Below, piece by piece: positions 8,649 through 25,940 of a stretch of DNA of 28,287 bases. Both the position numbers and the translations under genes were made by a program. This stretch comes from a virus. Every line of letters begins with the position of its first letter. Position 1 is the stretch's first letter. Where the stretch lies: the IMG/VR virus record IMGVR_UViG_3300009008_000192, positions 1 to 28,287 of that record. One strand, given 5' to 3'. A model generated the notes under the pieces. That model saw only the letters and a program-made list of their open reading frames with translations. It ran no database searches and was not told the origin of the DNA.

Positions 8649-8825
8649 TTAGCCTCTTATTGATTGTAAAATTTGCATCAACCGATGAGACCCGCGTCTA
8701 TCGCAAGTTTCGCACTGGGTTTTGATTGACTGGGTTTCAAGACTTACAGAAACCCGTCCGTCAATGCTCATAATCGCCATGCGCTCTCCGAGATCATCGC
8801 ATGTTTTTGGATTACAACCGCTCAT
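8649..8825 (-). CDS. Small Cys-containing hypothetical protein
   Basis: A 58-residue protein starting MSGCNPKTCDDLGERMAIMS with a later CETC motif, so a Cx4C plus CxxC zinc site is possible. The ATG overlaps the stop of the helicase-methyltransferase gene by 1 nt (TAATG on the minus strand), and the stop is 1 nt from the next start, which argues strongly for real translation. Function unknown. Confidence 0.55.
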   Translation of the reverse strand: MSGCNPKTCDDLGERMAIMSIDGRVSVSLETQSIKTQCETCDRRGSHRLMQILQSIRG

Positions 8826-11071
8826 TATATTAACTGCATCTGGTCTTTTTCGGCGCGTTCAAGATTCTTCACGGCCTGATTAAAATACGACTCTTTTAGC
8901 TCAAACCCGATAAACTTGCGATTGAGCTTCATTGCAACATGACCCTCGCTTGCAATGCCCATGAATGGACTTAAAACCGTATCCCCTTCATTGCTCCACA
9001 ACTGCATAGCGCGTTCGATTACATCAAGCTGAAGCGGGCAAATGTGGCGTTCGTCGTCATGTTCTCTTGCTGATCTGTGCTGCAGCGTATTTGACGGGTT
9101 AATGTCCATCCAAACCGGCGATGCGTAACGTTGCCAAATGTCGATTGAAAGGTTTCCAGTTTGTTTGAACGTGGATTGGTCGCCTGAGAACCATTCAAAC
9201 TCACCAGCAACGGGGTTTGGGTTTACGCCGTCCTTGCGCATTGTTACAAGATAATCAGGTATTCCTTGACGACTCATGCAAGAATCTTTTTTTACCTGCT
9301 TATGAAGCAATCCGAGCGCCTTGGTTCGTTGCATGGCAGTTACAGGATCTTTCCATATACAAACCTCGGAATGAAAGATAAAGCCGCAGTCCTCAAAAAT
9401 CTTGATGAGTTCTCCGCGGAAATCACGAATGCCGATAACCCCATCACGTGCCTTGCTGGTCGGCAGGTTCATGCAATGGAAGCTCATCAGTCTGCCCGGT
9501 TTCGTCACGCGGAACAATTCGCTTGCCAGATATTTGAAATGCTCTGAAAACTCCTCATTACTTTTGCAGTTACCCATATCGCGGTCGCTGTTCGAGTATG
9601 TGTAAAGCGATGCAAACGGAGGGCTGTAAACCGTGAAATCTACGCTATTATCTTCGAGTCCAGAAACGCCCTCAACGCAATCTCCAAGATTCGCATTCCA
9701 TCCTTTTCCTGTTGTGCTTTTCACTTTGTATTCTCCTTTGGTACGTGATGTGCCTTTTATGTTCTTTTCGTTGTAAACGTGCATGTTTGAAACCATCTCC
9801 GCAGCCATTTCTAGAGCGTCACGTTCCTTACGTTCAATATTTCTAACCACAGCGCCCTCGGTTTCAGCCGTGATTATGTAGCAATCGACTTCTTTTGTCT
9901 GTCCGAAACGCCAGCAACGACGGATAGCCTGGTAATACTGCTCGTATGAGTCCGAAAGTCCGACAAACGCAGCCTTGTTGCAGTTCTGCCAGTTCATGCC
10001 GTGGCCGGCAATCTTTGGCTTTGTGACGATGATACGATATTTTCCAGATGAGAAACCAAGCATCCGCTCTGTTTTTACATCATCGCTATGAGATCCGCTA
10101 ACCTCAACGGCATCGGGGATCTTATCAATAATGGCTTTCGCCTCATCGTTCAGATTGCACCATATAACCCATTGACCGGAATCAGACGCAACGATCCGTG
10201 CGCATTCTTCCGCCCGATCATCGATGGTCAATTTTCGTTCTTTCTGACGCTCTGAAAGCGTAGATGCTGGAAGCCGGAACAAAAGGCCGTCCGCCGAATC
10301 GGACTCAGTAACTGACGTTGTTATGTTGTGCATTTTGAGACTTGGAAGTTTAAAATCTTTATCTTCATATCCTAGGTCGGATGGCTTCCTGATCATTACT
10401 GCCCATGAGCAAACCCACTTCCAAAAATCCTTTTTAGCGTGTCCCTTGAGTCGCCATTTCTGAGTTTCACCACCATCATGCACAAAGAACATTGAAAGCA
10501 TTTCTGTGCGGCTCATTGATCCAACAAATTCAGCATGGTTTCCAAGCTCCATAAAATCGTTAGGTGCAGGTGTTGCCGTACACGCAAGTCGGAACGGGAT
10601 AGACTGGCACGATTTAATAATCTGATTACGTATCTTTCCCGTGTAGCTCTTGAGAATAGAGCTTTCATCAAGCACTATTCCTGAGAACTGCGAAAGATCG
10701 ACCTTGTGCAACTTCTCATAGTTGGTGATATGGATTCCAAAGTCCGGCGTGTATTCGCTATCTTCAAGTAATTCAACCTTTATGCCGAACTTTTCACCCT
10801 CTCGGATGGTCTGGTGGGAAACCGCCAGCGGAGCAAGAATCAACACTGGATTGTTCGTGCTATCTGATACTCGGTGCGCCCATTCAAGTTGCATGAGTGT
10901 TTTGCCCATCCCGCAATCTGCGAAAATGCAAGCACGGCCCCTCTTTAAAGCCCATCGTACAATGTCGCGCTGAAAATCGAAAAGGCTATCGTTCAGTTCG
11001 GCGCGAGGTACTTCAAACCCTGTATCAGGATTCGTTACTTCTTTATCTTTCAGAAACGTGCTGTATTCCAT
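8825..11071 (-). CDS. SNF2/SF2 helicase fused to DNA methyltransferase
   Basis: A 748-residue fusion. The N-terminal ATPase has Walker A DCGMGKT (52-58), a DESS box (135-138), a TAT motif III (165-167) and a C-terminal helicase half ending in QAIRRCWRFGQ (about 381-391), as in SNF2-like enzymes. The C-terminal part (about 455-745) is an N4/N6 DNA methyltransferase of the beta order: SPPF catalytic motif (483-486) precedes the SAM-binding SPFMGIASEG (701-710). SPPF favours N4-cytosine modification, though N6-adenine enzymes cannot be excluded. Likely role: modifying phage DNA, perhaps while translocating, against host restriction. Confidence 0.88.
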   Translation of the reverse strand: MEYSTFLKDKEVTNPDTGFEVPRAELNDSLFDFQRDIVRWALKRGRACIFADCGMGKTLMQLEWAHRVSDSTNNPVLILAPLAVSHQTIREGEKFGIKVELLEDSEYTPDFGIHITNYEKLHKVDLSQFSGIVLDESSILKSYTGKIRNQIIKSCQSIPFRLACTATPAPNDFMELGNHAEFVGSMSRTEMLSMFFVHDGGETQKWRLKGHAKKDFWKWVCSWAVMIRKPSDLGYEDKDFKLPSLKMHNITTSVTESDSADGLLFRLPASTLSERQKERKLTIDDRAEECARIVASDSGQWVIWCNLNDEAKAIIDKIPDAVEVSGSHSDDVKTERMLGFSSGKYRIIVTKPKIAGHGMNWQNCNKAAFVGLSDSYEQYYQAIRRCWRFGQTKEVDCYIITAETEGAVVRNIERKERDALEMAAEMVSNMHVYNEKNIKGTSRTKGEYKVKSTTGKGWNANLGDCVEGVSGLEDNSVDFTVYSPPFASLYTYSNSDRDMGNCKSNEEFSEHFKYLASELFRVTKPGRLMSFHCMNLPTSKARDGVIGIRDFRGELIKIFEDCGFIFHSEVCIWKDPVTAMQRTKALGLLHKQVKKDSCMSRQGIPDYLVTMRKDGVNPNPVAGEFEWFSGDQSTFKQTGNLSIDIWQRYASPVWMDINPSNTLQHRSAREHDDERHICPLQLDVIERAMQLWSNEGDTVLSPFMGIASEGHVAMKLNRKFIGFELKESYFNQAVKNLERAEKDQMQLI

Positions 11072-13564: not shown

Positions 13565-13649
13565 TTTTGACCCTGTTTACTACGTCGCATAATTCTTCAT
13601 AACTCAAGTAATCCGCATATTCACTGGTTCGCAAGCGATAGAACGTCAT
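13554..13649 (-). CDS. Tiny conserved-looking phage protein
   Basis: A 31-residue frame, MTFYRLRTSEYADYLSYEEL at its N-terminus and ending NRVKNEM. It begins inside the 3' end of the gene at 13621 and overlaps the next start by 11 nt. Its composition (Tyr/Glu-rich amphipathic helix) is protein-like rather than random, and it fills what would otherwise be the only sizeable gap between these genes. Too short to classify. Confidence 0.45.
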   Translation of the reverse strand: MTFYRLRTSEYADYLSYEELCDVVNRVKNEM

Positions 13650-13911
13650 CGCACCAATCGATCACTTTTTGACAATCATAGGCGTATGCGTTCACCTTGC
13701 CATATTCAGCGACAAACTCACCTCTGGGGAATTTTGGCGGCTTTGAGTTTTTGCGCTTCGGCCACGTCAATTGAACGTGAGTGTGTTTCCGTTGTTGAAG
13801 TTTGCACTTTGCTTTCAACGCGAGAATCCACTTTTTAAATTCTGGATCAAGTTGCGAACCAGAACATGGAGAGGTACGTGTGCCCCGCCCGGCATTCTGT
13901 GATTTAGTCAT
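13621..13911 (-). CDS. Hypothetical basic protein
   Basis: A 96-residue protein starting MTKSQNAGRGTRTSPCSGSQ. I choose the ATG at 13911 because AAGGAG lies 6 nt before it and it overlaps the stop of the upstream gene; the frame is open further upstream but that part lies inside another gene. The chain is basic in the middle and ends with an acidic/hydrophobic helix. No known domain. Confidence 0.6.
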   Translation of the reverse strand: MTKSQNAGRGTRTSPCSGSQLDPEFKKWILALKAKCKLQQRKHTHVQLTWPKRKNSKPPKFPRGEFVAEYGKVNAYAYDCQKVIDWCDDVLSLANQ

Positions 13912-14254
13912 GGTTGTCTCCTTGGGGCACACGCCCCTCATGTTTAGCGTTAGGAATAGCAATATAAGACCCGCTCGCCCCGAAGCACTTCGCCTTTTCT
14001 TTGATCTGTCGTCCCATGTGATCGAATAGCCCGATTTCAACCGGCTTGTCGGTCGGCAGCCCGCTGGTTATGGATTCAATCAGCTGTTCGGTCGTTACAC
14101 CGGCCTCGGCCTTGAAAGTGCCTTCCCATCCCTTGCGCGGGTGTTCGGCCTCAACGACCGATTTTGATACCTGCAGGCTTTCGTGAAGCTCGTTTTTTGC
14201 TTCCTCGATGATTGATCCAACCTTTTCCCATTGCTCTAATGACCATGCTTTCAT
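13904..14254 (-). CDS. Hypothetical protein
   Basis: A 116-residue protein starting MKAWSLEQWEKVGSIIEEAK. It has a helical N-terminus and a later strand-rich part with GLFDHMGRQIKEKAKCFG. The frame stays open about 400 nt upstream of this ATG, but that region covers the promoter and the small membrane gene, so the internal start is preferred. No family is recognised. Confidence 0.6.
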   Translation of the reverse strand: MKAWSLEQWEKVGSIIEEAKNELHESLQVSKSVVEAEHPRKGWEGTFKAEAGVTTEQLIESITSGLPTDKPVEIGLFDHMGRQIKEKAKCFGASGSYIAIPNAKHEGRVPQGDNHD

Positions 14255-14703: not shown

Positions 14704-15618
14704 GTGAGCGATAAAACTGCCAAGCTATACCGCATACTCAATTGGGACACCCATTTTGAGGGCGCAAAGAGTAAGACGTACAACAATAAAACGACATGCT
14801 CTATGCCGTGTAAGCATGGTCTCGGCTATAAAAGACTGATAAGATCAGATAATGGACCAGCTCTTTTCGGTGCATGGTGTGCGCTCATACAGGTTGTCAG
14901 TAGACATAAAAAGCCACGCCAAGGATACTGCACGGATACTGGACTATCTGACGGGGTTCCATACACAGCTACTGATATTGAGCTGCTAACCGACATTCCC
15001 GCCACAATTATTGAAAAAATGCTACAAGCTGTCTCGTCTAAGTATATTGGATGGGTTGATGTTACAGAATCTAAGGATACCATAGGGATACCACAGGAAA
15101 CTATAGTTCCCTCTAACTCAGACTTAGACTTAGACTTAGACTCTAAAACTACATTGTCGAAATTGCATTCCGACTTTCTGGAACGCTTCAATGAAGCCTC
15201 TGGAAAGAAATGTAGGGTTATCGACGCAAAAACAAAGCGTCAACTGTCCGCAAGGCTCAAAGACGGGTACACAGTCGATGAAATCATTAAAGCCACTGAG
15301 AACGCCTCTAAGGACGATTATCACAAGGAACACCGGCAACACCTGACGCCTGAGTTTATCACTAGGGCCGATAAGCTGCAGAAGTGGTTAGGGGCTGATG
15401 CCGGTCAGAAGATCGAAGAAAAGCCGGAAATCACCGAGGCCGACAAATACCGCGATTGGGCAATGCTGGGAGAATATGGTTTTGAGGGCAAGCACGGGAT
15501 GACGCATTTGGACTACGCTGACAAGATTCGGGTTGATCTTGCGGATATGACGGCTAAGGATTTCGGGATGAAGTACAAACGCTGCGCCAAGGATGCGCGG
15601 GAAGATTTGAATAAATAG
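14704..15618 (+). CDS. Phage replisome-organiser-like protein
   Basis: A 304-residue protein. The N-terminal about 120 residues look like a winged-helix replication-initiator region. A short DLDLDLD linker is encoded by four GACTTA hexamers. Residues about 155-230 match the 'conserved phage C-terminal domain' of DnaD/O-like replication proteins: FLERFNEASGKKCRVIDAKT and LTPEFITRADKLQKWLG. Such proteins bind the phage origin and recruit the helicase or its loader. No helicase or loader is seen in the window, so the host or another part of the genome must supply it. Confidence 0.75.
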   Translation: MSDKTAKLYRILNWDTHFEGAKSKTYNNKTTCSMPCKHGLGYKRLIRSDNGPALFGAWCALIQVVSRHKKPRQGYCTDTGLSDGVPYTATDIELLTDIPATIIEKMLQAVSSKYIGWVDVTESKDTIGIPQETIVPSNSDLDLDLDSKTTLSKLHSDFLERFNEASGKKCRVIDAKTKRQLSARLKDGYTVDEIIKATENASKDDYHKEHRQHLTPEFITRADKLQKWLGADAGQKIEEKPEITEADKYRDWAMLGEYGFEGKHGMTHLDYADKIRVDLADMTAKDFGMKYKRCAKDAREDLNK

Positions 15619-15621
15619 AAC

Positions 15622-15700
15622 ACTCAACATGAGCCGACACGGGATTAGGGTTCAGCTTTAAAAATCCGGCGTCGGCCCGTGTCGGCTCCAAGTTTTGGTT
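15622..15700 (+). repeat. attC-like site S1 (weak member)
   Basis: An ACTCAAC box (fits RYYYAAC) is followed by a perfect 13-bp stem (15631-15643 with 15676-15688) and, after CAAGTTTTG, by GTT at 15698-15700. It lacks the extrahelical base seen in S2-S6, so it could also be a plain hairpin. It marks the left edge of the cassette-like region; an ATG follows immediately after the GTT. Confidence 0.4.
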
Positions 15701-16189
15701 ATGCTCATGACTCATACAGATTTAGTTTTACGGGCTGAAAAATGGCTCAAAACATTCGGTTGCGCTGTAACTCTTCGGGAGCTGGTTGCTTTCACTTCGT
15801 CTGGGGAAATACCCGATGCGATTGGATGGAAGGGCGGGTTCTCCATTTTGGTTGAGTGTAAGGCAAGCCGTTCTGATTTTCTGGCGGACCGAAAAAAGAT
15901 ATTTCGCCAGAACCCAGAAATGGGAATTGGCTCAACGCGTCTCTACATGTGCCCTCCGGAAATTATAAAAAAGGAAGACCTTCCTGATGGGTGGGGACTT
16001 CTCTGGGTGCATGAAAAGAGGGTTGAACGAGTGGTAGCGCCGAAGGGGAATTGTTTTGGCCTTGATGACGGGTTGAAGACCTTTCACGACCGAAGTATGC
16101 AGGGAGAGGTTGCGCTTTTACTCTCAGCACTCCGGCGACTTGGTGAGCATGTGGATACGGAACTGATGTACAAATCTAAAAGAGCATAA
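15701..16189 (+). CDS. PDDEXK-like nuclease-fold protein (cassette gene 1)
   Basis: A 162-residue protein. The core EIPDAIGW followed by FSILVECKASRSDFLADRKK gives the D...ExK arrangement of PDDEXK/restriction-endonuclease-like folds (Asp in PDAIGW, Glu and Lys in VECKAS). The later GIGSTRLYMCPPEII and GWGLLWV segments occur in a conserved family of phage and cassette hypotheticals resembling MmcB/VRR-type proteins. It may act on DNA ends or repair structures; catalysis is not shown. A TTG 6 nt upstream is another possible start. It is the first ORF inside the cassette-like array. Confidence 0.65.
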   Translation: MLMTHTDLVLRAEKWLKTFGCAVTLRELVAFTSSGEIPDAIGWKGGFSILVECKASRSDFLADRKKIFRQNPEMGIGSTRLYMCPPEIIKKEDLPDGWGLLWVHEKRVERVVAPKGNCFGLDDGLKTFHDRSMQGEVALLLSALRRLGEHVDTELMYKSKRA

Positions 16190-16239
16190 CGACTGAAATG
16201 AGGGGCGGGGCAGCCGTACCCTCGATTGAATGGTTCGTT
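16184..16239 (+). repeat. attC-like site S2
   Basis: An AAC box (16188-16190) overlaps the stop codon. The stem is AAT/ATT (3 bp), one extrahelical G (16224), then GAGGG/CCCTC (5 bp). The 3' spacer is GAATG (5 nt), followed by GTT (16233-16235) in TGGTTCG. Geometry is the same as in S3 and S5. Confidence 0.6.
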
Positions 16240-16253
16240 TTAAATTAACCCAG
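16240..16253 (+). promoter_or_regulatory. AT-rich leader motif shared with the capsid gene
   Basis: TTAAATTAACCCAG, identical to 25914-25927 in front of the major capsid gene. It sits just before a purine-rich ribosome site. It could be a late promoter element or a translation-enhancing leader; two exact 14-mers argue against chance. Confidence 0.45.
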
Positions 16254-16268
16254 AAAGGGACATAGGAA

Positions 16269-16661
16269 ATGAAAAAGAAGATTGCACTAGAAGGTGGAAT
16301 AAACGGATTGACTGACGATGCCTGCACTAATTGGCGCGATCGTGTGATGCACGAACTCGGTGGTATTTATGATTTTCACAACCCGATGGATTTTGACTGC
16401 CGGGGTCGTGAAAAAGAACTCGAGCATGAACTTGTGGCTTTCGATGAAACTGGAATCGAAGCAAGCGACATTCTTCTGGTGAACGCCTCGACTGGTGGAT
16501 GGGGAACGGCGATGGCGGTTCAGATGGGGCATGATCAGAAAAAAAACATTATCACCATCTACAACCAAGAAAAGCCTATCAGTCCGTGGTTGAACAACCG
16601 AAGCACGACTGTTGTGGAAACGCTGGATGCGGCACTGGAGCATTTAAGGTTTTTGGGGTAA
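16269..16661 (+). CDS. Nucleoside 2-deoxyribosyltransferase-like protein (cassette gene 2)
   Basis: A 130-residue protein with a Rossmann-like layout. It has an N-terminal KIALEGGING strand-loop, a conserved WRDRVMHEL helix, and SDILLVNASTGGWGTAMAVQ, which resembles the D-x-x-x-x-N-x-x-x-x-x-G-T-x-E/A-x-A region of the nucleoside deoxyribosyltransferase/DUF4406 group. NIITIY and PISPW follow. The family moves deoxyribose between bases or hydrolyses nucleotides. The DpdA/TGT-like gene 3 nt downstream suggests a joint role in base metabolism or modification. Family moderately sure, substrate unknown. Confidence 0.55.
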   Translation: MKKKIALEGGINGLTDDACTNWRDRVMHELGGIYDFHNPMDFDCRGREKELEHELVAFDETGIEASDILLVNASTGGWGTAMAVQMGHDQKKNIITIYNQEKPISPWLNNRSTTVVETLDAALEHLRFLG

Positions 16662-16664
16662 CAT

Positions 16665-17291
16665 TTGAAGATTTACACGTCAGGATGTGGTGGAAAGAAA
16701 CTGGATGAGATTGCCCGGTTAGACATGGGCATTCTCGCCACACCACCGGAACCACTCCGCACTAACTGGAAAGAGTTTAGCGTAGCCCTGGATAATGGGG
16801 CGTTTTCCTGTTGGATGCGTGGTCTTCCTTTTATGGCGGAAAACTTTTTGAACCACATCAAATCCGCACACAAATCAGGATGCACTATAGATTTTATCGT
16901 GTGCCCGGATATTGTTGCCGGTGGATTAAGGTCGCTGGATTTCTCATTGGATTGGGCGAACTCGAAACACCTGATTTCTTCCTCAAATCTTTATCTGGCG
17001 GTGCAGGACGGAATGGAACCGAAGCACATAACGCCGAACATCTACAAACGCTTTGCCGGAATCTTTATTGGAGGAACGGTTGAGTGGAAGTGGAAAACCG
17101 CTGCTGAATGGGTTTCCTTTGCGCATGGTCTCGGAAAGAAATGCCACATCGGGCGATGTGGAAAAATTGAGTCACTTCACCGGGCTAGGGAAATAGGAGC
17201 CGACTCTGTCGATTCCTCAAACTTTGCGCGGAATGACTCTTTTAAAACTGTGGAACGATTTGAAACGGAAGGCGTGTTGGCGCTGAATTAA
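16665..17291 (+). CDS. DpdA/TGT-like transglycosylase (cassette gene 3)
   Basis: A 208-residue protein resembling phage DpdA, a relative of tRNA-guanine transglycosylase. Seen: ALDNGAFSCW (near 41-50), an FIVCPDIV strand (near 77), the signature FIGGTVEWKWKTAAEW (near 134) and CHIGRCGKIESLHRAREIGA with DSVDSSNF (near 160-188). DpdA enzymes exchange guanine in DNA for a 7-deazaguanine, shielding DNA from restriction. No preQ0 synthesis genes lie in the window, so the precursor would come from the host. Start is TTG with GGGG 6 nt upstream. It shares one cassette with the deoxyribosyltransferase-like gene. Confidence 0.65.
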   Translation: MKIYTSGCGGKKLDEIARLDMGILATPPEPLRTNWKEFSVALDNGAFSCWMRGLPFMAENFLNHIKSAHKSGCTIDFIVCPDIVAGGLRSLDFSLDWANSKHLISSSNLYLAVQDGMEPKHITPNIYKRFAGIFIGGTVEWKWKTAAEWVSFAHGLGKKCHIGRCGKIESLHRAREIGADSVDSSNFARNDSFKTVERFETEGVLALN

Positions 17292-17292
17292 A

Positions 17293-17375
17293 CGAACGAC
17301 TAACATGACTTTCGGTGGGTTCAGCATCGACGACTCACCGGACGTTTCAACGTAAAGTCGATGGACTGGTTGGGT
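17293..17375 (+). repeat. attC-like site S3
   Basis: CGAAC box, spacer GACTAA, stem CAT/ATG, extrahelical G (17360), stem GACTTT/AAAGTC, spacer GACTG, then GTTGGGT (17369-17375), an exact match to GTTRRRY. The interior folds into an 8-bp hairpin (17313-17320 with 17333-17340) plus a small one at 17342-17353. The most complete attC-like site in the window. Confidence 0.65.
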
Positions 17376-17379
17376 TATT

Positions 17380-17595
17380 ATGAGCATTTATCAAGTACCA
17401 ATAAAGGAATGGTTTTGTGATGAATCGTCGCCTTTTCACGCAGACTTATTTGTTGTTGAGGCGGCTTTGAATGCAGGAACAACCTGTGAAAAATGTGGAG
17501 GTGTTGTGACAATGCAAACTGGTTATTGCTCTCACGGAATCGCATATGGATTTGGAGAGATGCATTGCTGCGCTAAGTGCGCTGGCTACAAATAA
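17380..17595 (+). CDS. Small Cys-rich zinc-ribbon-like protein (cassette gene 4)
   Basis: A 71-residue protein with CEKCGG near residue 36 and CCAKC near the C-terminus, plus Cys and His in GYCSHGIAYG, giving a likely zinc ribbon. The first 30 residues are a short helical lead. The ATG is 11 nt after the GTT of site S3. No close family recognised. It is the only gene in its cassette-like unit. Confidence 0.55.
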   Translation: MSIYQVPIKEWFCDESSPFHADLFVVEAALNAGTTCEKCGGVVTMQTGYCSHGIAYGFGEMHCCAKCAGYK

Positions 17596-17600
17596 GACAA

Positions 17601-17688
17601 ACCTAACAAAATGGTGAGCGGCGCGGGAGAGTGACGCTGGCATAAAACGGGGCGTCGTACCGCGTCGCGCTCCACGAACTGGTTCGAT
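17601..17688 (+). repeat. attC-like site S4
   Basis: ACCTAAC (17601-17607) fits RYYYAAC exactly. Spacer AAAATG; stem GTG/CAC, extrahelical C (17672), stem AGCG/CGCT, then a 1x3 internal loop and CGCGG/CCGCG; spacer GAACTG; GTTCGAT (17682-17688). The terminal loop holds a further GACG/CGTC hairpin. Confidence 0.58.
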
Positions 17689-17706
17689 TAAAATTAAAGG
17701 AGATAA

Positions 17707-17946
17707 ATGATGAAACAAGCATACGAACTTGCAATGCGCATACAAGAGGCCAAGAACGAGGCCGCTGACAAAGCTATAGAAAAAGTCATAAACCATAGCA
17801 TCCCCGCTGAATCTAAACTTCTTGCAAAATTTAAGGAGAAACTTATCTGTGCTGTCGTTGAAGCTTCTGATATCGGCTTTGATGAGGGCATTCAATTCTA
17901 CTTATCGAACACTGGCGTGAGTGGCGTGGCTCAAGACGTTGATTAA
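17707..17946 (+). CDS. Small helical hypothetical protein (cassette gene 5)
   Basis: A 79-residue, mostly helical protein (YELAMRIQEAKNEAADKAIE, then LLAKFKEKLICAVVEASDIG). No family recognised. The start has AGGAG close upstream; a second ATG is adjacent. The last about 14 codons lie inside the attC-like site S5, so the C-terminus is encoded by the recombination-site-like sequence, as happens with some integron cassettes. Confidence 0.55.
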   Translation: MMKQAYELAMRIQEAKNEAADKAIEKVINHSIPAESKLLAKFKEKLICAVVEASDIGFDEGIQFYLSNTGVSGVAQDVD

Positions 17947-17988
17947 GCGGCCAGCGTTGCCCACGTACACTCGACGCACTGGTTGGAT
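17904..17988 (+). repeat. attC-like site S5
   Basis: CGAAC box (17906-17910), spacer ACTGG, stem CGT/ACG, extrahelical G (17973), stem GAGTG/CACTC, internal loop, stem CGTGG/CCACG, spacer CACTG, then GTTGGAT (17982-17988), an exact GTTRRRY. It overlaps the end of the preceding ORF. Confidence 0.62.
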
Positions 17989-18001
17989 TTAAGGAGGTCA
18001 A

Positions 18002-18232
18002 ATGAACTACGAAATCGACAATACAAAACACGTTAAAATCATGGTGATTGAGGCGAGTGATAACAAACCAGAAACATCGAAAGAATTAACCGACGTTACT
18101 TGTGGTTATATCGACAAAGGGTGGATGGTTCTTGAGTCGCTGACATTTCACCCAAACTACAGGATCGTCCTGTACTGGCCGGGACACAAATCCAACGAAC
18201 AAGTTGACCGTGAGCGAAGCGATACAGTCTAA
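18002..18232 (+). CDS. Small hypothetical protein (cassette gene 6)
   Basis: A 76-residue protein with alternating strand/helix character: VKIMVIEASDNKPETSKELT, then GYIDKGWMVLESLTFHPNYR, then IVLYWPGH. The K-G-W-x-V-L-x-S pattern resembles small DUF4177-like proteins, but I would not assign it. GGAGG is 6 nt before the ATG, which lies 20 nt after the GTT of S5. The 3' end overlaps site S6. Confidence 0.52.
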   Translation: MNYEIDNTKHVKIMVIEASDNKPETSKELTDVTCGYIDKGWMVLESLTFHPNYRIVLYWPGHKSNEQVDRERSDTV

Positions 18233-18245
18233 CGCTTGGTTCGAC
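18194..18245 (+). repeat. attC-like site S6 (short)
   Basis: CGAAC (18196-18200), stem GTT/AAC, extrahelical T (18230), stem GAC/GTC, a loop of about 18 nt, 3' spacer GCTTG, GTT (18239-18241). It keeps the 3-bp/extrahelical-base order of S2-S5 but with a shorter stem and a 2-nt 5' spacer. It contains the stop codon of the preceding ORF. Confidence 0.5.
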
Positions 18246-18261
18246 ATAAATGGAGAAAACT

Positions 18262-18483
18262 ATGACAGAAAAACAAATGGATAAAATTATCTCAAAGTGC
18301 AAGACGGGGTGCGCTGATGGCACAGCTCTCCTTGTGTTTCTAATTTTCCTTCACGGTTGCTTTGAAAACAATCTCACCAAAAAAGATGTGGAAGATGTTT
18401 TGCGCGAAAATGGACTGATTGAGCAACAGGTTGACGATCAGTCGAACGTTAGAGATGAGACGCGGGGAGATAGACGTGATTGA
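18262..18483 (+). CDS. Small hypothetical protein (cassette gene 7)
   Basis: A 73-residue protein with a possible hydrophobic helix GTALLVFLIFLHGCF (near residues 20-34) and charged ends. I choose the ATG at 18262 (GGAG 6 nt upstream) over one at 18250. The tail (DDQSNVRDETRGDRRD) reads across a degraded attC-like sequence at 18424-18450 into the start of the next gene, so the original C-terminus may have been shorter. Function unknown. Confidence 0.5.
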   Translation: MTEKQMDKIISKCKTGCADGTALLVFLIFLHGCFENNLTKKDVEDVLRENGLIEQQVDDQSNVRDETRGDRRD

Positions 18484-18832
18484 GGATGGAAGTGGAATGC
18501 AATTCGTTGAATGCACAAGAAGGCGTTGCCCTGCTTTTGATGAAAGCGGCCTTTGTACAGCGCTTGAATGTACACAACGCATTCCGACGGAACCCGAACA
18601 AAGCGCGACGGCCCCCGTCGAAGATTCTCAATCGACTGGTTCGGCACCTAATCTCGACCAGATGGCACTAAACCACGTTGCTTCGGAAATGCGCAAAACT
18701 GCGATGAAATTTGTGAACGACAAAGACCATGCTCGTTTGATGCGAGCTGGGGAACTTTTGGCGAAAGCCATTGAAAAGGATGCGAGCCGGATTGGTGCGA
18801 AAGGTTTGATGACGCCGAACCATAGAATATAA
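18455..18832 (+). CDS. Cys-rich protein reading through an attC-like site (possible cassette fusion)
   Basis: A 125-residue frame. Residues about 10-40 hold a Cys cluster (ECTRRRCPAFDESGLC then ECTQ), a probable metal site. The middle is the low-complexity translation of site S7. The last about 57 residues, from an internal ATG at 18661 (MALNHVASEMRKTAMKF onward), form a separate-looking helical unit, and that ATG is 22 nt after the GTT of S7. Either one fused protein is made, or two ORFs once in separate cassettes now share a frame. GTG at 18476 is another start. Confidence 0.5.
   Translation: MRRGEIDVIEDGSGMQFVECTRRRCPAFDESGLCTALECTQRIPTEPEQSATAPVEDSQSTGSAPNLDQMALNHVASEMRKTAMKFVNDKDHARLMRAGELLAKAIEKDASRIGAKGLMTPNHRI
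18593..18645 (+). repeat. attC-like site S7 (degenerate, inside an ORF)
   Basis: CCGAAC (18594-18599) and GTTCGG (18639-18644) are complementary, with the same 3' spacer GACTG as S3. The interior has a CGACGG/CCGTCG hairpin, but the 3-bp stem and extrahelical base of S2-S6 are not clear. It lies wholly inside an open frame. Confidence 0.42.
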
Positions 18833-18850
18833 GAAGCGTGCAAGGTTGCT

Positions 18851-19018
18851 ATGACCTACATAAAGCGTACAAAAGAATGCTCGGCCCGCGAAAAGGATTT
18901 CTTCGTGTCGGTTCGGCGGATTGGAATTGACAAATCGTTAAATATTCGCAAGGGTTTCAAAACGTCAACCAGGGGGATCGGTGAGAATCGGCAACGACGA
19001 ATTGAGGCGCGAGCTTGA
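18851..19018 (+). CDS. Small basic hypothetical protein
   Basis: A 55-residue frame, MTYIKRTKECSAREKDFFVS at its start, strongly basic and overlapping the next gene's GTG start by 38 nt in another frame. It begins just after an AAGGTTGCT sequence that resembles the GTT boxes of the cassette array, though no partner repeat is found. Coding status is uncertain; it may alternatively be untranslated leader of the downstream gene. Confidence 0.35.
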   Translation: MTYIKRTKECSAREKDFFVSVRRIGIDKSLNIRKGFKTSTRGIGENRQRRIEARA

Positions 19019-19328
19019 AAAAAGTATTAAGGCCGGTCAAATGACGGAGGAGTTTGCAACAATGGCGAGCATCATAGCAAACGGGCACATAGCAAGGCAC
19101 TTCGGGGAGTCGATGCACCTGAGACACGAATTTATATCAGCCTTCCATCTGGCAATCGTGCAGAACTGGCAGAAAATCAAGGTAGACGGCAACATTCACG
19201 CTTATATCAGCACTTTGGTTGGCAACCGGGCGCGAAACGTGATCAGGAGCGAGAAAAAGCAGGACAGGCGGCGACGGGATGCGCGGTATTTGCGCGATAA
19301 GTACATCAACAAGAGAGTTTTAATATAA
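18981..19328 (+). CDS. Sigma-factor-like protein (possible late transcription factor)
   Basis: A 115-residue protein with GTG start and a GGGGG block upstream. The middle (about 42-95) resembles sigma70 region 2 / T4 gp55-like sequences: RHEFISAFHLAIVQNWQKIK, then IHAYISTLVGNRARNVIRSE with a basic KKQDRRRRD tail. Small phage sigma-like proteins of this size direct host RNA polymerase to late promoters that need only a -10-like element. It lies immediately before the packaging/structural genes, the expected position. The resemblance is moderate. Confidence 0.45.
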   Translation: MRIGNDELRRELEKSIKAGQMTEEFATMASIIANGHIARHFGESMHLRHEFISAFHLAIVQNWQKIKVDGNIHAYISTLVGNRARNVIRSEKKQDRRRRDARYLRDKYINKRVLI

Positions 19329-19344
19329 TCCGTGTAAATTAACT

Positions 19345-19893
19345 ATGGGCAAGCTAACTCCAAAGCAAGAGGCTTTATACGGCAAAAACGACCTAATAGC
19401 CGATCATGGCGAGTGGGTAGAGGTTGATATATCGACTAAAAAATGGCCAAACAAGGTTATGAAGATCGATAAAGCCGGTCTAGGTGCGCTTCGAGAGGCT
19501 GGAATAGGGCGCTTCTTCTATGCTTCATGCGGATACGTACAATGCATGATGGGAGGAAAAACTACGTATGTCCACCGGATATTGCTGCCCGGATCCAAGG
19601 TTGTTGATCATAAAAACCACGATACACTCGACAACAGGATGAAAAATCTGAGGGCATGCACCCAAGTGGAGAATATGCGCAACAGTGGTCGCAGAAAAAA
19701 CAACACCTCTGGACATAGGGGTGTTAGTTGGAGCAAGAGGTCTAAAAAATGGCAAGTTCACGTTATGGTAAACAGGAAAAGCATATTCATAGGCATGTTC
19801 GAATCTATAAATAATGCTGTGAGTGCTAGAAAGGAAGCCGAGCTTAAATATTTCGGTGAATATGCATATTCCCAAGAGGTTACTTTAACATGA
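19345..19893 (+). CDS. HNH homing endonuclease with AP2 domain
   Basis: A 182-residue protein. An HNH_3-type core is seen near residues 90-112 (VDHKNHDTLDNRMKNLRACT), preceded by a Zn-free beta region with TTYVHRILL, and followed by an AP2-like DNA-binding domain (GHRGVSWSKRSKKWQVHVMV, then FIGMFESINNAVSARKEAE). This is the common free-standing phage homing endonuclease type. It is inserted between the regulator and terS, a favoured place for such elements. Confidence 0.88.
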   Translation: MGKLTPKQEALYGKNDLIADHGEWVEVDISTKKWPNKVMKIDKAGLGALREAGIGRFFYASCGYVQCMMGGKTTYVHRILLPGSKVVDHKNHDTLDNRMKNLRACTQVENMRNSGRRKNNTSGHRGVSWSKRSKKWQVHVMVNRKSIFIGMFESINNAVSARKEAELKYFGEYAYSQEVTLT

Positions 19894-20342
19894 GCGGTAA
19901 AAAAAACAGAGGCCGCCCGCCAAAATACAAAGACGAGTATACTAAGCAGGCCGAAAAGCTTTGCTTACTTGGCGCCACCGACGACGAAATAGCTGATTTC
20001 TTTGGCGTGGACGTTCGAACTATTTACCGATGGAAGAATGACCATGATGATTTTTGTCATGCCTTAAAGGTCGGAAAGCAATCCGCTGACAGCCGAGTGG
20101 AGCGCAGTTTGTATCAAAGGGCGGTGGGATACGAGGTTGACGACCTAAAGATATTCATGCCGGGCGGGGCGGATAAGCCGGTATATGCGCCTTACGTGAA
20201 AAAGGTTCATTCCGATGTGACCGCAGCAATATTCTGGCTAAAGAATCGTGATCCCGAAAAGTGGCGCGATAAACAAGAGCATGACCATAAAGTCGATGCC
20301 AATATCAAGTTTGTGATGGAGGAGCAGAAAGCGGATGACTGA
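19890..20342 (+). CDS. terS: Terminase small subunit
   Basis: A 150-residue protein with an N-terminal helix-turn-helix (LCLLGATDDEIADFFGVDVR then TIYRWKNDHDDF), a middle oligomerisation region, and the conserved AAIFWLKNRDPEKWRDKQEH near residue 110-130 that recurs in small terminases. It recognises packaging sites on phage DNA and stimulates the large subunit, which starts 8 nt inside its 3' end. Overlaps both neighbours. Confidence 0.85.
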   Translation: MSGKKNRGRPPKYKDEYTKQAEKLCLLGATDDEIADFFGVDVRTIYRWKNDHDDFCHALKVGKQSADSRVERSLYQRAVGYEVDDLKIFMPGGADKPVYAPYVKKVHSDVTAAIFWLKNRDPEKWRDKQEHDHKVDANIKFVMEEQKADD

Positions 20343-21630
20343 GGTTGTGCGCAAAATCCCAACAACACCGAACTATCGCAGGCTAAAAGAAGCCGATGCG
20401 AATGATTTTTTCTACAAGGTGCTTGAGGGAAGCTCTGGAAGCTCCAAAACATTCAGCATTGTTCAATACCTAGTCGAGAAGGCTCTTACCAAGAAACGAC
20501 GGATCCGCGGGTTACGATATGACCAGCGAACGTGTCGAGATTCAATCATTGCCGACTTTAAGACTGTGATGATGGAGCAATTCCAGATATGGGATGATAA
20601 GTGCTGGAACCAGACGAATATGGAATACACCTTTCCAAACGGTTCGTATTTTCATTTCCGAGGGTGTAAAGAGGCTCAAAAACTGCACGGCCCGCGCTAC
20701 GACATCACTTGGGCAAACGAGGTGATGGAACTGCCCTACGAGTCGCACCGCCAGATTGTAATGCGCACATCTGAGGAGATTATCTACGACTTCAATCCAT
20801 CGCTAAACAGCCATTGGATATTCGAGAAGGTTCAAAAGCGCGATGATTGCGCGTGGATACACTCAACATTCAGAGACAACCCGATGTTGCCGGCCACCGA
20901 CCGCGCCGAAATTCTCGCCTATGACCCAAACAATCCCGAAAATGTACGACAGGGAACTGCGGATAAGTGGGCTTGGGCTGTGTATGGCTTGGGTCAACGC
21001 GGTCGCAGAGAGGGCGCCATATTCAACATTGCCCCGGAAATCATCGACTATTGGCCCGAACAGCACCTTTGCGACAAGTGGGGATTCGGCCTGGACTTCG
21101 GCTATAGCGACGATCCTGCTGCGCTCATCGAATGCTGCATCCACCAGGGATCCCTGCTATTGCGCGAAAAGGTCTACGAAACAAAGCTTATCACCATCAA
21201 AAGCCATGCAGCACCAAACACGCCGAGTTTGCAGGGACGCTTTGAAGAGTGCGGAATCAGCAAAAACAGCAAGATAAAGGCCGATCAGAGCCGCCCGGAT
21301 CAGATAGCGGAACTGCGCACCGAGGGATACAACATCAGCGCAACGCCGAAAACGAAAGGTTCGATTGTGGCCGGTATAGATTTAATGAAGCGCTTTCCGA
21401 TCAAGGTTCATCGCGCCTCGGTCAATTTGCAGATGGAATTTCAACAATATGCTTGGAAAAAGCATTCGACCGGTCTAAATTTAAATGAGCCGGAGGACAA
21501 TTGGAATCACGGAATCGACGCGGCGCGATATTGGGCGCTCGATGAGTTGGTGAAATGGCAACCGGCCCGCCCTGGAAACCTTGGGCGCAAGCTGGCGAGA
21601 GCGTCAGGCAAACCGAGGAAGAGGTATTGA
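20335..21630 (+). CDS. terL: Terminase large subunit (PBSX/Terminase_3 type)
   Basis: A 431-residue DNA-packaging motor. The ATPase half has Walker A EGSSGSSKT (31-39) and a YDITWANEVME Walker-B region (122-132). The nuclease half begins with GLDFGYSDDPAA (Asp near 254), followed by IKADQSRPDQI and NHGIDAARYW, which carry the other metal-binding acids of the RNase H-like fold. It cuts concatemers and pumps DNA into proheads through the portal encoded downstream. Confidence 0.95.
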   Translation: MTEVVRKIPTTPNYRRLKEADANDFFYKVLEGSSGSSKTFSIVQYLVEKALTKKRRIRGLRYDQRTCRDSIIADFKTVMMEQFQIWDDKCWNQTNMEYTFPNGSYFHFRGCKEAQKLHGPRYDITWANEVMELPYESHRQIVMRTSEEIIYDFNPSLNSHWIFEKVQKRDDCAWIHSTFRDNPMLPATDRAEILAYDPNNPENVRQGTADKWAWAVYGLGQRGRREGAIFNIAPEIIDYWPEQHLCDKWGFGLDFGYSDDPAALIECCIHQGSLLLREKVYETKLITIKSHAAPNTPSLQGRFEECGISKNSKIKADQSRPDQIAELRTEGYNISATPKTKGSIVAGIDLMKRFPIKVHRASVNLQMEFQQYAWKKHSTGLNLNEPEDNWNHGIDAARYWALDELVKWQPARPGNLGRKLARASGKPRKRY

Positions 21631-21631
21631 G

Positions 21632-21772
21632 ATGATCGGCAAAGTTCTTGATTTAATAGCCACACTCCTTGCGATTGTGATTATTTACGCTATAGTCAGC
21701 GTAGGAATCGGGGCATTTGAGAAGGTTGTTGCGCGGGATTATTACGAAAGGGCTGTGAGGGTGGTAGAATGA
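21632..21772 (+). CDS. Small membrane protein
   Basis: A 46-residue protein: MIGKVLDLIATLLAIVIIYA followed by IVSVGIG, a single transmembrane helix, then a charged tail. ATG at 21632 with AGAGG upstream, 1 nt after the terL stop; the frame is open further upstream inside terL. A small hydrophobic protein after terL may be a holin-like or assembly-related factor; unknown. Confidence 0.5.
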   Translation: MIGKVLDLIATLLAIVIIYAIVSVGIGAFEKVVARDYYERAVRVVE

Positions 21773-22005
21773 ACCAGAAGACGATTCAATCGATGGACAA
21801 CATCGGCAAAACTTGCGCGTCAATAGACCGTCGTCTAAACTTAATGGGGCCGCTTATGGATCACGTTGCCCCCACCGTAATGCAACTCATGAGGGATGAC
21901 GTTCCGGCTGACAAGATGAATATCGAACTAGACCGTACCGCATGGAACTCGGTTTATGAAGAGGGAATCGACCGCGTGATGGGCCTAAACATAATCTGGG
22001 TGTAA
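21769..22005 (+). CDS. Hypothetical protein
   Basis: A 78-residue helical protein (LNLMGPLMDHVAPTVMQLMR in the middle, WNSVYEEGIDRVMGLNIIWV at the end), overlapping the previous gene by 4 nt. No domain is recognised. It lies in the small-gene stretch between terminase and portal. Confidence 0.52.
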   Translation: MNQKTIQSMDNIGKTCASIDRRLNLMGPLMDHVAPTVMQLMRDDVPADKMNIELDRTAWNSVYEEGIDRVMGLNIIWV

Positions 22006-22006
22006 T

Positions 22007-22210
22007 ATGAAGCGAAACCGCAACAAAAGGAAAAAGTCGGAACGTCTGACCCACTGGCAACAGATGGAGCAAAAGCGCATGTTTGCCGCAAATCAGGGCT
22101 TCATGCAGGCGGTAATGGATCTATGCTTTTCGATGCGGTGGCGTTTCGGCTGGCAGGTTATACGCGGGATTAATCCAATGACGGGGAAGAGGCATGAGCA
22201 AAGAGATTAG
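22007..22210 (+). CDS. Small basic hypothetical protein
   Basis: A 67-residue protein with an Arg/Lys-rich start (MKRNRNKRKKSERLTHWQQM) and a Trp-rich middle (FSMRWRFGWQVIRG). It starts 1 nt after the preceding stop and overlaps the next gene by 17 nt. Function unknown; its basic nature suggests DNA or capsid-interior binding. Confidence 0.5.
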   Translation: MKRNRNKRKKSERLTHWQQMEQKRMFAANQGFMQAVMDLCFSMRWRFGWQVIRGINPMTGKRHEQRD

Positions 22211-22340
22211 AGCCAAGAATCGGAAGTTTCGCAAGGAGGCGGAAGCGGCAGAGCGCAGGGATCTCCGCAGCCGAACCTACAGCACGAAAGAGGCGCGGGA
22301 CAACTTTGACCGGATCTTTGGCAAGAAAAAGCGCGGTTAG
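22194..22340 (+). CDS. Small charged hypothetical protein
   Basis: A 48-residue protein, MSKEIRAKNRKFRKEAEAAE at its start and ending FGKKKRG. Highly charged, helical. GGGGAAGAGG lies just upstream of the ATG. Its stop codon lies inside the promoter-like motif in front of the portal gene. Confidence 0.5.
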   Translation: MSKEIRAKNRKFRKEAEAAERRDLRSRTYSTKEARDNFDRIFGKKKRG

Positions 22341-22349
22341 TGTATATTA
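22336..22349 (+). promoter_or_regulatory. Promoter-like motif before the portal gene
   Basis: GTTAGTGTATATTA, identical to 25771-25784 upstream of the capsid leader. A TATATTA core without a clear -35 box would suit a late -10-type promoter, as in T4 late promoters. It lies 13 nt before the portal ATG, so the transcript would have a very short leader, or the motif may act differently here. Confidence 0.5.
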
Positions 22350-22361
22350 ACCGAGGACACT

Positions 22362-23996
22362 ATGGGAAAATCTAAAGCCGATAAAGCAATCCAAGCCTAC
22401 GAGGGCGGGAAGCACGAACTTGACAGCGTTGACTCGCTGACGAGGATATGCGCCCGCTACTTCGTACCTGAGTACAACGACCTGACCATTGACCCGAACG
22501 AGAGCGAAATATCTCTGCCGAACACCAGCGCGGGGATTATTTCTCATCAGAAAATGGTGGGCGGTCTGTTTTCAAACACCGTTTCCATGGGGCGTGGTCA
22601 CATTGAAAGCGCTGATCCTGAAATGCGAGAGCGTGAGGAAGCCCAGCGGTTCTATAAGAAAATCGGGGAAAAGGGCGACGACATTATGGGAATCGTGTTC
22701 CCAGAGGCGTACCATGAAAGTCTCAGCGACTATTCACTCGGCTCGGTTGGCGTTCTCTATGTCCATTTCGACGAAGAAACGGGCGAGCATGAGATTGAAG
22801 CCCACGGTTCGGCGGATTGCGTCTGGTATCTTGATCGGCGCGGGCGGGCAACCGAAATGTATCGCAAATTCGAGTATACCGCCGACCAGGCCGTCGAGCA
22901 CTTCGGATATGACTCTGTAAGCGATGAGGTTCGCAAGGCTTACGACAAGAGCGATAAGAAGAAATTTGAGTTCATCCACGGTATGTACCCGAGGAAGAAA
23001 CGCAACGCCAAAAGAAAAGACTCCAAAAATATGCCTTTCGAGGTGGTTTATGTGGAAGTCAAAAACCGTAGAACCGTTATGGAATCGGGTACATATCGTT
23101 TTCGCTATGTGGTGTACGTTCAGAACAAGCGCCGCGGGATGCGGACGGGCTACTCAAGCGCGATGCATTCGCTTCCGGCCATGCGAACGGCGGTTAGGGC
23201 AATCGATGACTATTTTGATGCGAGCGAGTTCCGTACCCGCCCCGCAATGTTCATGAATGACGAAAACAGCGTTGACAATGCGAATGCGCTGCGGCCGGGG
23301 GATGTCCGGTATGCTGATTTGACCACAACGCCATTTCTTTACGGTGGCGACACCGACCCGAATGGAGCGCGGGAAGTCGCAGAAGTGCAGTTTTCCGAGG
23401 TCGAACAGCTTCACTTCCTCGATTTGTTCCAGGCGCTGGAGCATTTCAAGGAAGGGCAAAAGACCGCTTACGAGGTTTCGCAGATCATCGCTGAAAAAAT
23501 CTTCATGATTTTCCCGGTAATCAACTCGCTTAAAGGCATGTTCTCGGATGTTATCACCATTCTGGCGCAGGATATTATTCAGTATGGGCTGGCAGACGTT
23601 GAGGTTCCTGACGTTCTTTTGAGCAAGGACGAGGGCGGGAATATCGCAATGGGCGACCAGTTCCGTGTTAAGTACACCAGCCGTATTGACATGCGGGTTG
23701 CCGGGGTGGAAACCGAAAACGTCCTGTTCGCGATACAAGAGATGGTTCAGGCCGAACAGTTGCTCGAAGGAAGCACTCACGCGCAGGCCGTGGTTAAGAT
23801 CGAAGAAACCCTTATGCGGATTGCCAACAAGCGGAATCTGGATGTTGACCAGACGCGGAACAGCATTGAGTACAAAAACGAATTGGCGCGGATCCGTCAG
23901 GAGCGAATTGCAATGGCAAACGCGCAGGCCGATATTGAAGCGGCATCTAAGCGCGACATTCAGAAGACCCCTGAGCCGGGTAGCGAGGCTGAATAA
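22362..23996 (+). CDS. Head-tail connector / portal protein (T7 gp8-like)
   Basis: A 544-residue protein of the podovirus head-to-tail connector family. Seen: an N-terminal helical region with ICARYFVPEYNDLT, a middle with FPEAYHESLSDYSLGSVGVL and the LDRRGRATEMYRKFEYTADQ strand-helix typical of this family, a later RTRPAMFMNDE, and a C-terminal helix-rich crown including KTAYEVSQIIAEKIFMIFPV. It forms the dodecameric ring through which terminase pumps DNA. Length is close to T7 gp8 (536). Confidence 0.88.
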   Translation: MGKSKADKAIQAYEGGKHELDSVDSLTRICARYFVPEYNDLTIDPNESEISLPNTSAGIISHQKMVGGLFSNTVSMGRGHIESADPEMREREEAQRFYKKIGEKGDDIMGIVFPEAYHESLSDYSLGSVGVLYVHFDEETGEHEIEAHGSADCVWYLDRRGRATEMYRKFEYTADQAVEHFGYDSVSDEVRKAYDKSDKKKFEFIHGMYPRKKRNAKRKDSKNMPFEVVYVEVKNRRTVMESGTYRFRYVVYVQNKRRGMRTGYSSAMHSLPAMRTAVRAIDDYFDASEFRTRPAMFMNDENSVDNANALRPGDVRYADLTTTPFLYGGDTDPNGAREVAEVQFSEVEQLHFLDLFQALEHFKEGQKTAYEVSQIIAEKIFMIFPVINSLKGMFSDVITILAQDIIQYGLADVEVPDVLLSKDEGGNIAMGDQFRVKYTSRIDMRVAGVETENVLFAIQEMVQAEQLLEGSTHAQAVVKIEETLMRIANKRNLDVDQTRNSIEYKNELARIRQERIAMANAQADIEAASKRDIQKTPEPGSEAE

Positions 23997-24211
23997 TGCC
24001 ACCCAACAATGAGGACAGCAGGGCGAAGCAGCACCGTCACGCGATAAAGCAACTCGCAAAGACGGCGAACGGCAAGAAGGTTCTGGATTATCTGGTAGAG
24101 CAGGGCGGTTTTTACAAGACGCTTTCGCACTCCGATCAAAAAACTCAAAATGATGCTGTCGCAAGGCGTGATTTCGTGGTAAAAAACATCATCAACCCAA
24201 TGAACAAGTGA
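23996..24211 (+). CDS. Small Bbp19-like hypothetical protein
   Basis: A 71-residue basic, helical protein that starts inside the portal stop (TAATG). The pattern KKVLDYLVEQGGFYKTLSHS followed by DAVARRDFVVKNII resembles the small Bbp19-type proteins found just after podovirus connector genes. It probably has a head-assembly accessory role; family assignment is tentative. Confidence 0.55.
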   Translation: MPPNNEDSRAKQHRHAIKQLAKTANGKKVLDYLVEQGGFYKTLSHSDQKTQNDAVARRDFVVKNIINPMNK

Positions 24212-24217
24212 GGAATT

Positions 24218-24859
24218 ATGAGCGAACCGATTACAAAAGAAGCACTGTTAGCGGGCGAACTTGATCCGGAAGCGGTCAGCCTGACTGATATTATGGCGTT
24301 TTGCGCTGAGAACGACATCGACTACGATGTCAGCAGCGAGAAGGAAAAGAAGGATATTCTTAATGACCTTTGCGATATTCTTTCGGGGCCTGTTTTTGAG
24401 GAGGTTTCGGTCGAGCAATATGCAGATTCATTCGGCTGTTCTATTGATCTCATCAAAGAACTTACCGGCCTGCCCCGCAAAAACAGCAAGATCAGTTTGG
24501 AGATTCAAGATAAGCTACCGGGCAAGATTCTTGCGCACCACGCGCTTAATGACGACGCACCGCCCGAGAAGAAAGATGTTGTTCAGGATGAAGGTCCGGC
24601 CAAACCCAAAGAAAAGCCGAAGTCAGACTTCCTTTCGCGCCGTGCCAAAAAGATCGAACAGGCAAAGATGCGCACCGGAACCACGGACGGCAAGGGTGCA
24701 AGCGGTCAAGATTTCCCGCTTGAAAAATACAAGGATCTTCCGGAAGAAGAATACGACAAGTTGCCGGGGCGTATTCGTCGCAACCTGGAGCGCAACGACC
24801 CTGATTTAAAGGAGCGTGAAGCCAAGAAGGCCGAAGCCAAGAAACAGCAGGGTAAATAA
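24218..24859 (+). CDS. Hypothetical head-module protein
   Basis: A 213-residue acidic-then-basic protein. Residues 1-115 look globular and helical (SLTDIMAFCAENDIDYDVSS, FGCSIDLIKELTGLP); about 115-150 is a Pro/Lys-rich linker; the C-terminal 60 residues are charged and end KKAEAKKQQGK. It lies between portal and scaffold genes, so it may be a scaffold accessory, protease cofactor or internal protein. No family is recognised. Confidence 0.55.
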   Translation: MSEPITKEALLAGELDPEAVSLTDIMAFCAENDIDYDVSSEKEKKDILNDLCDILSGPVFEEVSVEQYADSFGCSIDLIKELTGLPRKNSKISLEIQDKLPGKILAHHALNDDAPPEKKDVVQDEGPAKPKEKPKSDFLSRRAKKIEQAKMRTGTTDGKGASGQDFPLEKYKDLPEEEYDKLPGRIRRNLERNDPDLKEREAKKAEAKKQQGK

Positions 24860-24860
24860 T

Positions 24861-24931
24861 CGCAGTGGGGCTGGTGCTCGTGTTGGGTTCATAGTCCAAT
24901 AACGCGGGTTCGATTCCCGCCACAGCAACCA
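24861..24931 (+). tRNA. Aberrant initiator-like tRNA-Met (CAT)
   Basis: 71 nt with encoded CCA. The T-arm is perfect (GCGGG/TTCGATT/CCCGC at 24904-24920). The anticodon arm is TTGGG / TTCATAG / TCCAA with CAT at 24890-24892. The acceptor arm has C1:A72, the hallmark of bacterial initiator tRNA, plus an A:A mismatch; the discriminator is A. The D-arm is reduced (stem GGGC/GCTC, 4-nt loop TGGT) and the usual two linker nucleotides before it are missing. It may be a degenerate or regulatory tRNA-like element rather than a working tRNA. It sits within the late operon between two head genes. Confidence 0.72.
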
Positions 24932-24947
24932 ACAAGGAGAGTAAGTT

Positions 24948-25697: not shown

Positions 25698-25725
25698 AAT
25701 AACTTTCAACTTCTCCTCAAGTTGG

Positions 25726-25762
25726 CCGCTCATCTCTTTTTTTAAGGGGTGGGCGGTTTTTT
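25726..25762 (+). terminator. Rho-independent terminator after scaffold gene
   Basis: A 9-bp stem CCGCTCATC/GGTGGGCGG with G:T pairs (25726-25734 with 25748-25756), a 13-nt loop and six Ts. It separates the scaffold transcript from the capsid transcript, which has its own promoter-like motif 9 nt downstream. Confidence 0.75.
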
Positions 25763-25770
25763 ATTACGGA

Positions 25771-25784
25771 GTTAGTGTATATTA
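25771..25784 (+). promoter_or_regulatory. Promoter-like motif before the capsid leader
   Basis: GTTAGTGTATATTA, an exact copy of the motif at 22336-22349, placed right after a terminator and followed by more AT sequence (TATATATAAG). This setting strongly suggests a transcription start for the major capsid gene. Confidence 0.6.
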
Positions 25785-25808
25785 TATATAAGCAGGGAAT
25801 AACCTTAC

Positions 25809-25885: not shown

Positions 25886-25913
25886 AAGCGACAGATTAGA
25901 AATTGTTGTTTGA

Positions 25914-25927: not shown

Positions 25928-25940
25928 GGAGGGTACGAAA

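Follow-up and report, generated by a model that had tools for sequence, protein, structure and literature searches.

A candidate integron-type cassette array with inverted attC-like sites in a tailed-phage record

Seven hairpin sites between the replication gene and the terminase

The IMG/VR virus record IMGVR_UViG_3300009008_000192 was analyzed over its entire 28,287 bases (the window) and belongs to a tailed phage by its terminase, although the record is possibly a fragment. Between the replication-initiation gene (14704-15618) and the terminase gene (20335-21630), seven sites (S1 to S7) that carry AAC and TGGTT lie within 3.1 kb and alternate with small genes on the plus strand. The initial annotation, made from the sequence alone, had proposed that these sites resemble the attC sites of integron gene cassettes; they are present where it placed them, and the resemblance is stronger than it had stated. 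Read in the direction of the genes, S1, S2, S3, S6, and S7 share the layout AAC, 6 nt, 3-bp L box, stem, loop, stem, one unpaired base, L box, 5 nt, GTT, while S4 deviates by a right spacer of 6 nt and S5 by a left spacer of 5 nt. Each site forms 7 or 8 of 8 possible base pairs, and the unpaired base lies on the 3' arm. When read antisense to the genes, this is the attC-type arrangement of R'' and R' boxes around an imperfect hairpin with an L box, an unpaired base, and spacers of about 5 and 5-6 nt.

The R'' boxes that fit both geometry and complementarity have their AAC at 15619, 16188, 17295, 17605, 17908, 18194, and 18445. S1 (15615-15704) follows the stop of the replication gene, forms 7 of 8 pairs, and ends in the R' box GTTATGC at 15698. 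It is followed by S2 (16184-16240; R'' GCATAAC, R' GTTCGTTT), S3 (17290-17376; R'' AAACGAAC, R' GTTGGGTT), S4 (17600-17688; R'' AACCTAAC, R' GTTCGAT), S5 (17904-17990; R'' ATCGAAC, R' GTTGGATTT), and S6 (18188-18245; R'' AAATCCAAC, R' GTTCGAC). S7 (18441-18645; R'' GTCGAAC, R' GTTCGGC) has a long loop that extends it to about 200 bp, and the next open reading frame (ORF) begins within it. The array ends with a terminal R'' box, GCCGAAC (18814-18820, plus strand), which pairs with the R' of S7 and has no clear hairpin behind it. A further site with geometry like that of the array sites lies on the minus strand (13852-13955; R'' AAC at 13951-13949, R' GTTCGCAA at 13859-13852) and, with its partner R'' box TTGCGAAC at 13634-13627, forms a one-cassette minus-strand copy of the array unit (13627-13955).

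AAC and GTT are invariant across sites, and the exact consensus boxes that had been listed at 17369 and 17982 (GTTRRRY) and at 17601 (RYYYAAC) were borne out. The RYYYAAC listed at 15622, on the other hand, is not the R'' of S1, which the geometry places at 15619. The claim that stems differ while geometry is kept gained in strength when 30 sites from the window phage and three relatives were compared: every site forms 6-8 of 8 pairs, and all eight L-box and stem pairs vary with pairing mostly kept. A scan for the motif TCGANNNACTGGTTNG alone, with mismatches allowed, did not exceed chance. We also considered whether TGGTT might reflect a conserved peptide (S-x-x-W-[LF]) and ruled this out because the reading frames differ among sites; the loops of S3-type sites, which differ in length while pairing is kept, contradict it as well. 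Inspection of the sequence, with no terminator scan made, showed no T run behind the hairpins, and a terminator reading was rejected.

Box complementarity between neighboring sites

Once an integron cassette has been circular, its 5' box R' (GTT...) is complementary to its 3' box R'' (...AAC), which belongs to the next site in the array. We found this pattern in all seven window cassettes, where R' of one site and R'' of the next are complementary over 9, 8, 8 (one G-U), 7, 9, 7, and 7 bp, and S2 is thus chained on both sides. Within their own sites the two boxes are complementary over only 3, 3, 3, 3, 3, 3, and 7 bp, in six of seven cases just AAC with GTT. Of 5040 possible orderings of the sites, 2 score as high for chaining, with the true order counted. 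Across 27 chained cassettes (7 of 7 in the window and 20 in the relatives), complementarity averages 8.5 bp compared to 3.8 bp within own sites, with the reservation that chained pairs outside the window were chosen partly by complementarity. Complementary boxes at the ends of gene units are a mark of formerly circular integron cassettes, and in the known arrays of Vibrio anguillarum phage p16, Shewanella phage M16-3, and Tetrasphaera phage TJE1, most neighboring sites are complementary over 7-12 bp.

To detect attC sites we used a geometry detector together with sequence shuffles. Canonical attC geometry occurs at four sites on the minus strand of the window, all of them chained, while in 1000 dinucleotide-preserving shuffles no strand had more than 3 such sites or more than 2 that were chained, so that none of the 1000 reached the observed values. 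The detector found no chained attC-like array in MW202573 (first 30 kb) or P12002L and therefore misses some published sites.

Polarity of the sites relative to their genes

One and the same detector places published attC sites on the gene-sense strand and the present phage sites on the antisense strand. Read on the gene-sense strand, 27 of 30 phage sites have their unpaired base in the GTT arm (3 ties), whereas 31 of 32 control attC sites have it in the AAC arm. In the same way, a G follows AAC in 26 of 30 phage sites, whereas the controls carry that G on the opposite strand (C before GTT, 28 of 32). The phage sites thus have the unpaired base on the R''-L'' arm if they are read antisense but not in the direction of the genes, and the earlier equation of the gene-sense layout with the attC layout has the polarity backwards. 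We conclude from these markers that the phage sites are predicted attC sites lying antisense to their genes. In the open-licence literature, covered mostly by titles and abstracts, we found no earlier description of an array whose attC polarity is inverted.

Inverted sites have been made in the laboratory. When the extrahelical bases and spacer of a Vibrio cholerae repeat (VCR) were moved to the other arm, the top strand recombined at the level of the wild-type bottom strand, and the recombination point moved to R'' (Bouvier et al. 2009, PMC2727003). By this rule, the coding strand would recombine in the phage sites, with the cut at AA|C. The phage sites resemble the altered VCR in that their L'-R' arm carries both the unpaired base and the spacer asymmetry; unlike that product of mutation, they appear natural and are known from sequence.

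Reading frames with possible starts inside hairpins

Of 28 phage cassettes, 18 have a main ORF with a possible start codon (ATG) ahead of R', usually by 45-88 nt and mostly deep in the hairpin. ORFs of this kind span about 90-101% of the cassette. Among the controls, an ATG upstream of R' occurs in 2 of 25 cassettes, both borderline at 8-9 nt. The window itself has such hairpin-borne ATGs at S7 and the minus-strand site only, and the genes after S1-S6 begin behind R'. Translation signals are common within the phage hairpins, namely a ribosome-binding site, a start codon, and the preceding gene's stop.

Relatives of the array and spread of the S3 hairpin

A search of IMG/VR with a pattern derived from the sites yielded three further contigs, G002 (41.7 kb), G003 (53.5 kb), and G004 (38.7 kb, with the S3-type hairpin in two copies), whose arrays are chained as in the window. 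All three share the S3-type hairpin at 81-95% identity, and this hairpin is the only window DNA that aligns with any of them at E 1e-3, with the edges of homology at AAC and shortly behind GTT. The phages are otherwise unrelated or distant, as the window portal has 21-22% identity to those of G002 and G004 where alignable. When 84,980 cellular genomes were searched for the right arm of S3, nine matches were obtained, none with the remainder of the site, and blastn with the S3 hairpin gave no match in phage and plasmid collections; the hairpin family is thus rare in the collections searched. The 28 viral loci that match CTCNATNGACTGGTTSGA include no chained site and are regarded as chance. Searches with repeated-hairpin patterns returned no additional contigs, and a pattern search for a host in four genomes reached via chance matches returned none.

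Within G002, identical leaders are fused to different bodies at GTT (MSDKNAAGQDVPSID|WLAV.. and |WLEV..; MKDKISGGFHRMVHFL|VSFR.. and |VSFF..), and an 86-bp hairpin is present twice, with identity that stops near the boxes. The expectation that breakpoints would coincide with the boxes therefore holds in part: homology blocks that contain a hairpin mostly end at or near AAC and GTT, while no array variants of the same phage were seen. The capture of host cassettes, which had also been suggested, is not supported, since the recognizable cargo is phage-type and the S3 hairpin, not found in the cellular genomes searched, is present in phage contigs unrelated to one another. Near-identical hairpins in unrelated phages point to a putative gene-swapping scheme shared among phages.

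Two other observations were made in these contigs. Behind some R'' boxes (400, 3743, 6975, and 7823 in L018, from G002; about 17065 in L019; 20187 and 21454 in G004) lies a second element type that reads AAC-AGAGGTATAGATATAAAAAG... or AACAGAGGGATAGGTGGAAAATG and has no clear attC hairpin, possibly representing array ends or another type of site. In addition, 42 bp at the 3' ends of different genes (5110-5151 in L018 and 1464-1505 on the minus strand of G003) are 95% identical up to R'', behind which different hairpins follow.

Source of a recombinase

In line with the initial annotation, which saw no integrase gene in the window, a search with TIGR02249 (integron integrase) had no match in the record. 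Neither a tyrosine nor a serine recombinase came to light: PF00589 was not found in G001-G005, a search that did not include the window and covered records not proven complete, and PF00239 was not found in G000-G004. Seven clustered sites in 3.1 kb without a nearby integron integrase place the array within the definition of a cluster of attC sites lacking integron integrases (CALIN), which calls for at least two such sites; the intI and attI of a complete integron were not found in these possibly incomplete records. The simplest supplier of a recombinase would be the host, through an integrase that acts in trans.

Interpretation of the array

We read the locus as a phage-borne integron cassette array without an integrase, that is, a CALIN, in which attC polarity is inverted relative to the genes, and give this reading a probability of roughly 0.6 on the sequence evidence. 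Its CALIN part, already put forward in the initial annotation, draws on geometry, covariation, cassette-closure complementarity, and positive controls. Under this reading, the coding strand, once single-stranded, would fold into a recombinogenic hairpin, and an integron-type tyrosine recombinase, host-supplied or undetected, would cut the AA|C box (R''). The mobile unit would be hairpin-GTT-ORF-AA, so that a gene would travel with its upstream hairpin and any start codon in it, and the cassette gene would be transcribed from the phage operon rather than from a host integron promoter. Since many ORFs begin in the hairpin, crossover at R'' would keep them whole, whereas crossover at R' would re-fuse them at each move, which favors the inverted mechanism. 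Tentatively, and at a little under even odds, we extend this to phages of some uncultured host clade that would hold a private cassette pool with inverted attC sites, recombining on the coding strand at R'', with the hairpin at the 5' end of the gene often supplying a start codon and leader peptide.

Several points weigh against the inverted-array reading. GTTRRRY is frequently not matched, C being common as the fourth R' base (GTTCG); no recombinase was found in the records searched; no circle turned up, nor did any variant of the array in the same phage; and part of the chaining outside the window may reflect how pairs were selected. Moreover, the identical hairpins of G002 have different neighbors on both sides, which leaves co-travel with the downstream gene unproven and means that hairpin-borne starts are not proof of the inverted mechanism.

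The leader fusions exactly at GTT in G002 would also fit an ordinary phage CALIN, in which attC-derived sites cross over at R' (G|TT), nothing depends on where the unpaired base lies, and cassettes come from a host integron. The genes that begin behind R' after S1-S6, like those of normal cassettes, suit this explanation, and phage CALINs with working attC sites have been published (PMC9892861). However, every polarity marker points the opposite way, hairpin-started ORFs would be re-fused at every move, and the cellular genomes searched yielded no S3 hairpin, so we consider this explanation unlikely. Another explanation takes the hairpins as structured RNA or DNA elements between phage genes (serving translation control, processing, or as homology patches) that resemble attC sites and spread by homologous recombination, which would fit their frequent content of translation signals, the recurrence of identical hairpins within G002, and one G002 site with a whole ORF between two loop half-copies. 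We regard this as improbable, because it accounts neither for the pairing of R' with the R'' of the following site instead of its own nor for the exact spacers and unpaired base that are shared with genuine attC sites. Finally, the 7-12 bp inverted repeats that flank each gene body might suggest small transposon-like units with short terminal inverted repeats, but the repeats vary from unit to unit, the intervening hairpin retains attC geometry, and no serine recombinase was found (transposase families were not searched one by one), which makes such units highly improbable. The G002 site mentioned above (L018, 5147-5382) carries the repeated half-copy GAGCCGAAGGAGAAAC.ATGAC and looks as if a gene had been inserted in the loop.

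CALINs have already been reported in phages, Tetrasphaera phage TJE1 among them, and IntI1 recombined 5 of 6 phage attC sites tested (Qi et al. 2023, PMC9892861). Like these, the window array combines attC-like sites and small genes without an integrase, complementarity between R' and the next R'', and the same spacers and L box. TJE1, however, carries the unpaired base on the gene-sense AAC arm rather than the GTT arm, and in the relatives of the window phage, unlike TJE1, many ORFs begin inside the hairpin. The sedentary VCR-type arrays of phages p16 and M16-3 likewise share the 7-12 bp circle complementarity, the hairpin geometry, and the repetition of similar sites, but their sites are sense to the genes, an integrase is in the record, and genes begin behind R'. 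What is new relative to known phage CALINs is the consistently inverted polarity, the hairpin-borne starts, and the hairpins common to unrelated phages.

The polarity of attC sites is considered to ensure that captured genes face the integron promoter. If our reading is correct, several unrelated phages would maintain an all-inverted array that parallels in nature the inverted VCR sites made in the laboratory, and phages that lack an integron promoter could exchange genes in complete units ready for expression. A cassette pool passing from phage to phage thereby becomes directly testable.

Cassette genes and neighboring regions

The cassette 1 gene (15701-16189, plus strand) belongs to the phrog_631 family, which has no assigned function, and its protein has 47% identity to P1/P7-like phage proteins. 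Cassette 2 (genes spanning 16269-17291, plus strand) encodes a 130-aa protein with a weak nucleoside 2-deoxyribosyltransferase match (16269-16661) and a 208-aa DpdA/TGT-like protein (16665-17291), for which no relatives were found in IMG/VR. Also on the plus strand are the genes of cassette 3 (17380-17595; 71 aa, weak zinc-finger match) and of cassettes 4 (17707-17946; 79 aa), 5 (18002-18232; 76 aa), and 6 (18250-18483; 77 aa), the last three without an assigned function. The cassette 7 gene (18455-18832, plus strand) encodes 125 aa from the ATG within S7 and reads through R' (GTT at 18639), and the single minus-strand cassette gene (13621-13941) starts within its hairpin. Cargo in G002 and G004 gave weak Lar-like matches and one radical-SAM match. 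As judged from these matches, the identifiable cargo is phage-type, and most cargo has no recognizable function. The DpdA-like gene of the window and the Lar-like genes of G002 and G004 suggest traffic in counter-defense genes.

A second IMG/VR contig, L001, has 99.84% identity to window positions 18889-28287. Its left side (1-115, compared to window 18775-18889) diverges directly after the terminal R'' box; as this is a contig end of only 114 bp, we draw no conclusion from it. Upstream of the array, the minus strand of the window (8825-11071) encodes a 748-aa helicase-methylase with 60% identity to that of Synechococcus phage S-CBS3 and similar proteins in phages of many hosts.

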